From: Woeseiaceae bacterium
Lineage (GTDB): Bacteria; Pseudomonadota; Gammaproteobacteria; Steroidobacterales; Woeseiaceae
DNA: 37,223 nucleotides
Assembly (NCBI GenBank): GCA_013001045.1
Contig: JABDNG010000006.1
Span: 1-37,223, forward strand
Direction: 5' to 3'
Position numbers and translations under genes: made by a program. Within the stretch, counting starts at the first letter, position 1; each line of letters starts with the position of its first letter. Shown here piece by piece: positions 35,684 to 37,223 of the stretch. The notes beneath the pieces were generated by a model that was given only the letters and a program-made list of their open reading frames with translations, was not told where the DNA came from and ran no database searches.

Positions 35684-36574
35684 GTGTTCAAAGGCAGTCT
35701 GGTCGCACTTGTAACGCCATTCGATGGCAATAATCGGGTCGATTACACCAGTCTCAAGCGTCTGATCGATTTTCACGTCGAGCAGGGGAGCGACGGGCTG
35801 GTCATTGCCGGGACAACGGGCGAGTCGGCGACGCTCACGCGGTCCGAGCATATTGAACTCGTGGGCAGGGCGATCGAAATTGCGGGCGGGCGTCTGCCGA
35901 TCATCGCGGGCACCGGATCGAACTCGACGTCGCAGACAATAGAATTGTCGCTCGCCGTGGCTGATCCCGGCATAGCGGCGTACCTGGTCGTCGTGCCGTA
36001 TTACAACAAGCCGACACAAGAGGGCCTGTACCAGCACTTCACGGCGATTGCCGACGCGGTGGCCAAGCCGGTCATGATGTACAACGTGCCTGGTCGAACG
36101 GTTGCGGACATGCTACCCGAGACAGTCGGGCGCCTGGCGAAGCATGACAACATCTTCGCGATCAAGGAAGCGACCGGCGATATCGATCGATTGAAGCAGA
36201 TTCAGGCACTGGTTGCCGATGACTTCATGCTTTACAGCGGAGACGATTTCACAGTGTTGCCGTTCATAGAGCAGGGCGGACATGGCGTCGTTACGGTCAG
36301 CGGCAATGTCGCGCCCGAACAAGTCTCACGGTTGTGCGAGTTGGCGCTGGCTGGAAAAAGCGAAGAAGCAAAGGAGCTTGACGCGACGTTGCAGCCATTG
36401 AACAAGGCGCTGTTCGTAGAGTCGAATCCGATACCGGTTAAATGGGCTGTCAGCGAGATGGGCCTGATGGCACCGCACATCAGGCTGCCGCTGACACCAT
36501 ACTCAGCGCAGTATCACGAAGAGATGCGATCGGCAATGCATACGGCCGGCGTCGATCTGGAGAATGATTTATGA
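35684..36574 (+). CDS. dapA: 4-hydroxy-tetrahydrodipicolinate synthase
   Basis: DapA condenses pyruvate and aspartate semialdehyde, the first step of lysine and diaminopimelate synthesis. The 296-residue TIM-barrel protein has the Schiff-base lysine K161 (AIKEATGD), Y133 (MYNVPGRT) and the T44-T45 pair (AGTTGESATL), all at E. coli-like positions. GLYQHFTAIAD and LFVESNPIPVKWA are also family motifs. The frame opens at TTG 35666, but GTG 35684 gives MFKGSLVALVTPF, equal to the E. coli start, and follows GAGGCGAGG by seven bases. Its stop overlaps the next lipoprotein gene by ATGA. Confidence 0.97.
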   Translation: MFKGSLVALVTPFDGNNRVDYTSLKRLIDFHVEQGSDGLVIAGTTGESATLTRSEHIELVGRAIEIAGGRLPIIAGTGSNSTSQTIELSLAVADPGIAAYLVVVPYYNKPTQEGLYQHFTAIADAVAKPVMMYNVPGRTVADMLPETVGRLAKHDNIFAIKEATGDIDRLKQIQALVADDFMLYSGDDFTVLPFIEQGGHGVVTVSGNVAPEQVSRLCELALAGKSEEAKELDATLQPLNKALFVESNPIPVKWAVSEMGLMAPHIRLPLTPYSAQYHEEMRSAMHTAGVDLENDL

Positions 36575-36834
36575 CGATGGTTCGAGCGACAGTCGTTCTT
36601 GGCTTGCTTGGCAGCCTGGCGGCCTGTGGTGGGGACGATGTGATCAATACCGCCTGCGACGAGCCGCAGCGATACCAGCGCGTGGTGCCAGGGAAGCGTA
36701 TTGAAGTGCCGGAGGGTTTGAATCCGCTCGATGAGTTGGCGGAGATGCCGATTCCTACCGCCAAGGACGCGCCTGTTCGGCCCCCGGGCTCGCGTTGCAT
36801 CGAATTGCCGCCGGCGGCAGTGACGACCAACTGA
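36571..36834 (+). CDS. small lipoprotein resembling the N-terminal lasso of BamC
   Basis: The 87-residue product has a signal peptide and lipobox SLAAC (C19), then about 68 polar residues with no predicted fold. In E. coli, dapA is followed by bamC (nlpB), whose unstructured N-terminus wraps around BamD. The segment here, RYQRVVPGKRIEVPEGLNPL, followed by EMPIP, resembles that lasso (PAGM... and YAIP in E. coli). It lacks the two helix-grip domains of BamC. Two further cysteines (C29, C76) could form a disulfide. The start ATG 36571 overlaps the dapA stop. Synteny and motif favour a truncated or minimal BamC; the assignment is inference. Confidence 0.72.
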   Translation: MTMVRATVVLGLLGSLAACGGDDVINTACDEPQRYQRVVPGKRIEVPEGLNPLDELAEMPIPTAKDAPVRPPGSRCIELPPAAVTTN

Positions 36835-36880
36835 TCGGGGGCAGTAAGACTTACGTTCGGAGAGGTGGCTGAGTGGCTTA

Positions 36881-36946
36881 CAGAATCGCCGGAAGCGATT
36901 TTGAACCGCGTAGCGGCCCAAAGGGCGGCGAACAGGATGTTCGCCG
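36881..36946. repeat. hairpin string in the D-loop insertion
   Basis: Adjacent stems: 36881-36889 with 36895-36903 (9 pairs, one G-U, loop CGGAA); CCGC/GCGG at 36906-36916; GCCC/GGGC at 36916-36926; and CGGCGAACA/TGTTCGCCG at 36926-36946 (9 perfect pairs, loop GGA). Nearly every base of the insertion is in a stem. Confidence 0.8.
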
Positions 36947-37000
36947 TTATCGTGCTCGCCTGGAAAGCGAGTGTGTGGTGATATCGCACCGGGGGTTCGA

Positions 37001-37072
37001 CAAATCGGCTATTGCCGATTTGGACGCCCGCAGTGCGCCCCGAAGGGGTGAGAATCGCCCTGAGGCGATTCG
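37001..37072. repeat. hairpin string in the T-loop insertion
   Basis: Adjacent stems: CAAATCGGC/GCCGATTTG at 37001-37022 (9 perfect pairs, loop TATT); CGCCCC/GGGGTG at 37036-37050 (6 pairs, one G-U, loop GAA); GAATCGCC/GGCGATTC at 37052-37071 (8 perfect pairs, loop CTGA). The first and last share the AATCG...CGATT arms with the first hairpin of the D-loop insertion. Confidence 0.82.
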
Positions 37073-37112
37073 CATCAATTCCTCCCTGGGGGTGAGATGA
37101 AAATTTGAATTG

Positions 37113-37203
37113 GGAGAGATGGCTGAGTGGTTTAAGGTGCTCGCCTGGAAAGCGAGTGTACGGTGATACCGTACCGAGGGTTCGAATCCCTCTCTCTCCG
37201 CCA
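37113..37203 (+). tRNA. tRNA-Ser (anticodon GGA)
   Basis: This is a 91-nt class II tRNA with encoded CCA. The acceptor stem is GGAGAGA/TCTCTCC with discriminator G. The D-arm has GGCTGAGTGG. The anticodon stem CTCGC/GCGAG holds loop CTGGAAA, so the anticodon is GGA, reading UCC and UCU. The long variable arm TACGGT/ACCGTA is typical of serine tRNAs, and the T-arm is GAGGG-TTCGAAT-CCCTC. It lies 22 bp after the broken copy. Confidence 0.97.
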
Positions 37204-37223
37204 GACAAGAAAAACGGGGTCAG

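Follow-up and report, generated by a model that had tools for sequence, protein, structure and literature searches.

Introduction

Several kinds of short palindromic DNA bear comparison with the sequences described here. Rickettsia palindromic elements (RPE) are palindromic inserts inside genes, MITEs and other palindromic non-autonomous relatives of single-strand transposons are small and non-coding, and the attC sites of integrons are folded DNA sites with variable hairpin ends. The REP, BIME and REPIN sequences, moved by TnpAREP (RAYT) proteins that are relatives of IS200/IS605, are short, palindromic, dispersed and non-coding, and likely act as folded single-stranded DNA (accessible parts of PMC8266576 and PMC3116915); the same part of PMC8266576 defines a REP by a GTAG tetranucleotide 5' of the palindrome. 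According to the portion of PMC9897764 at hand, tRNA genes are classic landing sites of mobile DNA.

Here we report on hairpin strings that interrupt a tRNA-Ser copy in a Woeseiaceae bacterium. The window, i.e. the whole stretch of DNA analysed, spans 37,223 nucleotides and belongs to a 2.6-Mb draft genome of 146 contigs that is 78% complete. The inserts share the general traits of REP sequences listed above, but they contain several hairpins each, prefer tRNA loops, and are tracked in copy number by Y1 genes weakly at best; moreover, in place of the GTAG signature they show mostly a CGA left flank (58/92 distinct hits) and a CA start (65/92). They are set apart from RPE by description, i.e. 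by having four hairpins, by recurring at certain tRNA loop positions and by occurring in other hosts, and from MITEs by insertion at A^A (the caret marks the insertion point) within hairpin loops, no parent transposon being recognised in the L179 and L198 intervals. With attC and tRNA attachment sites they have in common folded DNA with variable hairpin ends and the association with tRNA 3'-half remnants (available part of PMC9897764), although they also occur in D- and anticodon-loops. In the literature searched, which left most subscription journals and preprints outside its reach, we found no description of such tRNA-loop inserts, and met no earlier account of insertion into all three tRNA loops at one recurrent step by a DNA-type minihairpin element. 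Our main reading, to which we assign a probability of about 55%, is that the inserts belong to a family of palindromic DNA elements, each about 60-80 bp long, which spread within and outside Woeseiaceae by entering hairpin loops, above all those of tRNA genes.

Results

A truncated tRNA-Ser copy with inserts in two loops

Direct reading of the sequence showed that 36859-37086 is a truncated tRNA-Ser(GGA) copy with hairpin strings in the D-loop and in the T-loop, lying directly before an intact copy, just as the earlier note on this DNA had described it. The two inserts measure 69 and 77 nt, and the features are the following.

36859..36880, + strand: 5' acceptor strand, D-stem and D-loop of the tRNA-Ser copy as far as the first insert (TTA^), lying in a direct repeat shared at 88% with the intact gene
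36881..36949, + strand: insert of the D subtype in the D-loop, 69 nt of short hairpins (covariance model R1 at 36882-36948, 27.9 bits, E 5.6e-7)
36950..37000, + strand: anticodon arm, variable arm and 5' side of the T-arm of the copy, ending in TTCGA^, an 87% direct repeat with the intact gene
37001..37077, + strand: T-loop insert, 77 nt, four hairpins, ending in TCA (model R1, 76.4 bits, E 1.4e-21)
37078..37086, + strand: what is left of the 3' strand of the T-stem, with neither acceptor 3' strand nor CCA end after it (from the sequence)
37087..37112, + strand: tail of the copy, then the intact gene's leader (from the sequence)
37113..37203, + strand: intact tRNA-Ser (GGA) (ARAGORN 37113-37203; Rfam RF00005 37113-37200, 58.4 bits)

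Two direct repeats link the copy to the intact gene, one of 54 nt (87%) and one of 25 nt (88%), and we take them as far above chance, the repeat tool itself giving no chance level. The RNA fold of 36861-37100 beat 200/200 shuffles (z -5.4), and each of the two inserts did the same when folded as DNA on both strands and as RNA on the + strand.

As a tRNA gene the copy lacks a full acceptor stem and 3' end. Neither ARAGORN nor Rfam (at the gathering score) called it, both reporting in this region only the intact tRNA-Ser(GGA), which is also the only Rfam 15 match over the gathering score in the window. A pattern search for an acceptor 3' strand found none in 37078-37112, and the same pattern was absent from 10/10 hand-chosen segments running from the insert of an upstream copy to the next tRNA, the window's among them. 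The earlier suspicion that a charged tRNA is unlikely is therefore supported. The variable arm had also been read as one that still pairs by G-U changes. It does pair with G.U, but the arm equals the intact arm of the related locus L052 with one C-to-T change, whereas the arm of its own intact neighbour differs more. Most of the pairing is thus inherited and cannot serve as proof that the copy is under selection, and the copy is no fresh duplicate of its neighbour. The best explanation of the window copy is an old truncated tRNA-Ser copy carrying one element of the D subtype and one of the T subtype.

The contig itself ends inside the trailer of the intact tRNA, and contig C124 of the same genome starts with at least 114 identical bases (37097-37223).

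Conserved structure and ends of the inserts

A coverage-based hairpin-array detector, used at two settings, flagged terminators and left the window inserts unflagged, and was replaced by patterns and a covariance model. Specifically, 41 distinct T-loop inserts were reduced to 39 in alignment A1 (L165 and L172 being left out by hand), and the 15 gapless ones gave alignment A2 and model R1. The window T-loop insert is not one of the training rows of R1. Both window inserts belong to the family by four-hairpin structure and R1 score (76.4 bits for 37001-37077 and 27.9 bits for 36882-36948).

The T-loop insert reads C(A)AA hairpin 1, GA, hairpin 2, hairpin 3, Y-GA-G, hairpin 4, C-GA-R, TCA. In the 15 gapless inserts, 97.2% of the pair cells are standard and 11/26 pairs carry double changes, a value reached in 0/500 shuffles. 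A larger alignment (A3) of 98 hits, 92 of them distinct, gave 97.6% standard pairs and double changes in 24/26 pairs, again with 0/500 shuffles as high; these counts lean to the model structure, as A3 was fitted to R1 and contains its 15 training rows, and the shuffles ignore relatedness. The 98 hits are no census, since their 91 sources were hand-chosen from the loci at hand. Among the 92 distinct hits, TCA stands at the end in 71 and CA at the start in 65; the GA motif is closed by T-A in 48 and by C-G in 36, and GA/GA is intact in 78.

Loops of the GNA or GNNA type prevail in hairpins 1 to 3. GNRA is the tetraloop favoured by RNA, and GNNA loops are stable in DNA. Three-base loops were GNA in 13/20 cases for hairpin 1, 83/89 for hairpin 2, 86/88 for hairpin 3 and 13/17 for hairpin 4; four-base loops were GNNA in 53/61 cases for hairpin 1 and in only 5/61 for hairpin 4, and the 51 listed GNNA loops of hairpin 1 included 6 GNRA. 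All these counts lean to GNA, most of all for hairpin 2, because many loci were gathered with a pattern containing the hairpin 2 GNA step and R1 was trained on such rows; the T-loop insert set, in addition, required a CG.AG step. An RNA helix is expected to tolerate G.U much better than A.C, and among 2176 pair cells the difference between G.T (24) and A.C (16) was small. DNA minihairpins with GNA loops are extraordinarily stable (Yoshizawa et al. 1997, as cited in the accessible part of PMC6479982). DNA-type loops together with no clear excess of G.U over A.C thus argue for a structure formed at the DNA level, favouring, without proving, that the inserts are DNA hairpin elements, given the sampling bias of the loop counts. 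The shared structure could also serve an RNA.

A search of 12 loci against Rfam 15 gave two matches, both below the gathering score. One of the two, to RF02902 (AaHKsRNA22, E 0.12), covers the insert of L167 (962-1051) and is a lead to a possible relative elsewhere.

Recurrent target sites

An A borders most of the 92 distinct hits: it is the last base of the left flank in 77, the first base of the right flank in 79, and both in 67; CGA (58/92) is the most frequent left triplet. When the two flanks were joined (6+14 bases, up to 2 mismatches), the uninterrupted sequence was found in the same locus for 36/88 testable hits, against 5/88 when the right flank of another hit was used. The neighbouring intact gene is the empty site for inserts at equal steps of the D-, anticodon- and T-loops. 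The palindrome insertion into loops that the earlier note had proposed for this copy therefore turns out to be general, with similar inserts at equal loop positions in many tRNA copies.

A script assigned the 98 hits to the T-loop (60), the anticodon loop (4), the D-loop (1) and other sites (33); part of these 33, not all, were re-read as tRNA loops whose position was off by one or two bases. In the relatives, tRNA copies carry inserts in the D-loop (e.g. L052, L057, L117 and L134) and in the anticodon loop (L060, L101, L183, L236 and L245). In genome G016 (L106), a single insert links the left side of a D-loop to the right side of a T-loop, twice in tandem, as two inserts recombining would give. 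The left-side rule is also kept outside tRNA sequences: a copy on contig C43 of the own genome reads GCGA^C...GCCA^AC, and six dispersed intergenic repeats of genome G042 (L160, L168-L171 and L174) read mostly GCGA^C...TCA^ACC. We saw no clear target duplication.

Some further arrangements were recorded at these sites. On contig C43 (L218, 1451-1650, G000:C43), an insert lies between direct repeats of about 26 bp, beside the 3' end of a putative groEL. In the G042 repeats the insert sits within an outer stem, and the stems of L168, L171 and L174 differ in sequence yet pair by eye. An inverted tRNA 3' end behind the terminator was noticed in L152, the clearest case, and in L009 and L034 (degenerate); in L152, the tRNA 3' end, the terminator and the inverted end make one long palindrome.

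Occurrence in the genome, the family and the phylum

The own genome holds further loaded copies. On contig C67, a tRNA-Ser(GCT) copy that is interrupted, like the window copy, in both its D- and T-loop adjoins an intact tRNA-Ser(GCT), followed by a 3' half with a T-loop insert, an intact tRNA-Arg and more loaded 3' halves. Loaded 3' halves also lie behind a putative tRNA-Gln and tRNA-Glu, and behind a tRNA-Ser on contig C95. Model R1 gave 9 matches at E <= 1e-3, one being the reverse strand of the window's T-loop insert, and a gapped pattern of the T-loop insert picked out 4 places, with C92 holding the 2 that were judged real on reading.

Under filters strict enough to lose weak matches, R1 (E 1e-4) hit 64/81 sampled genomes of the family, the own included, with 0 to 29 hits per genome. 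Seventeen genomes gave no R1 hit. All nine sampled members of genus g20, with sizes of 1.1-2.0 Mb, are among these, as are G001 (97% complete at 2.5 Mb) and G022 (100% at 5.1 Mb). A strict 18-base core was present in 40/61 genomes of the genus, against 5 hits in all for the backward control. In a sample of the order, the core was found in 42/196 genomes, i.e. 28/41 of the own family and 14/155 outside it, where the backward control gave 3 hits. Five loci from outside the family were read, and all but L188 (L183, L184, L186 and L187) look like real elements; since L184 hardly differs from L202, a locus of the own family, it may come from a contaminated bin. In a sample of the phylum, again with strict filters that lose weak matches, R1 (E 1e-6) hit 29/249 genomes, the own included, and 22 of these belong to family f46 of another class. 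Among nine outside loci from this sample, L259, L261, L263, L266 and L267 have GGTTCGA^ on the left and an ATCC-like sequence on the right, i.e. T-loop flanks, and the other four (L260, L262, L264 and L265) sit elsewhere.

In conclusion, the inserts form a family with shared ends, recurrent loop positions, conserved structure and wide occurrence. Given the R1 hits across the family and the equivalent loop positions in relatives, the window copy is no one-off scar.

Conservation of the D-loop insert

A scan for dapA gave 46 loci, the nearest 13 of which, at 65-89% protein identity, carry the names Woeseiaceae, Woeseia, Chromatiales or Gammaproteobacteria, pointing to Woeseiaceae as the family. 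Four other genomes have a copy holding a D-loop insert downstream of dapA, so that relatives do have tRNA-like sequence here and neither of the outcomes that would have refuted the earlier note was observed. L052 and L057 each match the D-loop insert at 65/69 positions, and they match the 5' part of the tRNA copy at 21/22 and 22/22, respectively (94-100% overall for these two parts), as compared with 162/261 and 185/261 (62-71%) for the adjacent lipoprotein-like gene. The spacer (14/23 in L052, 12/26 in L057) and the intact tRNA (84/91 and 82/91) were compared as well; the rest of the window copy, T-loop insert included, is mostly missing in both loci. The idea of a scar left by palindrome insertion thus holds as far as the insertion goes, but 'scar' alone is too weak a word for a 5' part and D-loop insert that outconserve their flanks in two relatives.

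A search for the D insert in 73 genomes of the genus found 24 matches in 15 genomes, the own included. Eleven of these loci were read. In eight of them (L269-L275 and L283) the match falls in the D-loop of an upstream copy, belonging to a tRNA-Ser(GGA) downstream of dapA in four cases and to a tRNA-Ser(CGA) in the other four. The stretch of L270 is that of L052, and L269 that of L057, and therefore the eight loci add six to the two aligned relatives. In an alignment of eight rows (A4), 4 pairs showed double changes, with 4/500 shuffles as high; further pair types were not above shuffles (496/500 as high). Weaker matches (L276-L278) had no tRNA call on that strand, and four matches in G042 were also not beside a tRNA.

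Such conservation at one locus argues against a purely parasitic reading of the D-loop insert, and fits function or descent better than a parasite. As judged from sequence comparison, either the D-loop insert is kept for a use, or its subtype was recently spread by exchange, and the D-loop insert and the tRNA 5' part may both be kept for a use. The doubtful alternative that follows is a functional leader: the 5' part with its D-loop insert would be a transcribed tRNA-Ser mimic placed before the real tRNA and influencing how that tRNA folds, is processed or is expressed, or it would lure a tRNA-binding protein as a decoy, with once-mobile inserts put to use. The excess conservation over the adjacent gene, the recurrence of the D subtype in D-loops of upstream tRNA-Ser(GGA) and tRNA-Ser(CGA) copies, and the double changes in A4 are all in its favour. 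It is weakened by the narrow distribution of the D insert over the 73 genomes, by its matches away from tRNA genes, by the failure of further pair types to exceed shuffles and by the wider family's lack of a clear G.U excess; in addition, no sigma-70-like or terminator-like pattern was found in 36560-37223, and a BLAST comparison of the 13 named dapA loci, the same-locus check that the earlier note had proposed, found an upstream copy in only 4 and the intact gene alone in 9.

Discussion

The data presented above are best read as a new family that is probably mobile DNA with a preference for tRNA loops. As an outline of how such DNA elements could spread, the element would be exposed as a string of stable minihairpins when the DNA is single-stranded, and would insert between two adjacent A residues (A^A, usually as CGA^A) in the loop of a sequence that folds into a hairpin, such loops being supplied by tRNA genes. 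Hits in needed tRNAs would be removed by selection, so that the elements are seen in spare copies, namely truncated ones upstream of tRNA-Ser genes and 3'-half ones downstream of many tRNAs, which could arise by tandem duplication and from integration remnants. We infer that the elements are mobile, that they move as folded single-stranded DNA through an enzyme acting in trans and that working tRNAs stay clear of them only through selection, and the insertion chemistry, the enzyme and the timing in this outline are presumed in the same way. Simple insertion does not explain the 3'-side truncation of the upstream copies read.

As for the mover, reading the ORF lists of two array-to-array intervals (L179 and L198) brought no candidate gene to light. 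Y1 transposases (PF01797) occur in 39/61 genomes of the genus, with one in the own genome (G000), and none was found in the array-rich G019 and G021 (14 R1 hits each). Over the 39 genomes covered by both surveys, the rank correlation between Y1 and R1 hits was 0.27 (p 0.09), with a mean of 7.0 hits in genomes with Y1 and 4.4 in those without. This weak correlation neither supports nor excludes Y1 as the mover.

The abundance of tRNA 3' halves suggests another origin, which we regard as quite unlikely: the inserts would be part of the recombination sites of integrative elements, the 3' halves being old attachment sites whose hairpins a recombinase reads as folded DNA. Many copies do consist of a tRNA 3' half and a terminator behind an intact tRNA, and tRNA fragments are known to arise from integration (PMC9897764, in its accessible part). 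Behind a tRNA-Arg, L193 (G121:C1:1006800-1009200) holds near-identical tandem units of about 178 bp, each with 3' end, terminator and insert, but tandem units can come from ordinary unequal recombination. On contig C7 of G042, tRNA-Phe-like 3' remnants with inserts are spaced by about 5.3, 5.3, 5.3 and 10.4 kb, and in L198 (1101-2910) a putative AbiEi/AbiEii pair, recognised by reading, lies between two insert-bearing tRNA-Phe remnants. Against this origin, inserts in D- and anticodon-loops of 5' truncated copies and at non-tRNA sites do not fit one attachment site, and no integrase was recognised by reading alone in the window's ORF list.

On the same G042 contig, L180 (G042:C7) has various genes between its tRNA-Phe-like remnants, and L180-L182 are without tRNA calls; the remnants of L180 and L181 are perhaps a row of integrated islands.

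A process with no mobile element at all, in which template switching at hairpins and correction to perfect palindromes would grow hairpin strings in spare tRNA copies, appears improbable. The T-loop inserts are indeed centred in the T-arm palindrome, their hairpins are nearly perfect, and 8/53 T-loop inserts are preceded by an inverted match of at least 8 bp to the tRNA 3' end, where shuffling the left flanks gave 0.86 on average. However, insert sequence and ends are common to different tRNAs, genomes and families, which calls for a common source.

Finally, although tRNA stems remain around the inserts, we reject as extremely improbable a working tRNA from which they are spliced like introns, since the acceptor 3'-strand pattern is absent from all ten segments and an intact gene adjoins, and we know of no bacterial precedent for such introns in three tRNA loops.

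Returning to mobile DNA elements that insert in hairpin loops, a bolder version is tentative. In this version, single-stranded-DNA hairpin elements, present in at least two classes of one phylum, would have loop-specific subtypes (D, anticodon and T) that enter folded tRNA genes, the loaded copies before tRNA-Ser would be kept as conserved decoys or leaders, and the whole would be a previously undescribed class. If the insertion of minihairpin elements into tRNA loops is true, the inserts would be a natural record of tRNA loops exposed in living cells, they would offer a new target preference to seek an enzyme for, and they would serve as a warning that loaded tRNA copies escape tRNA finders.
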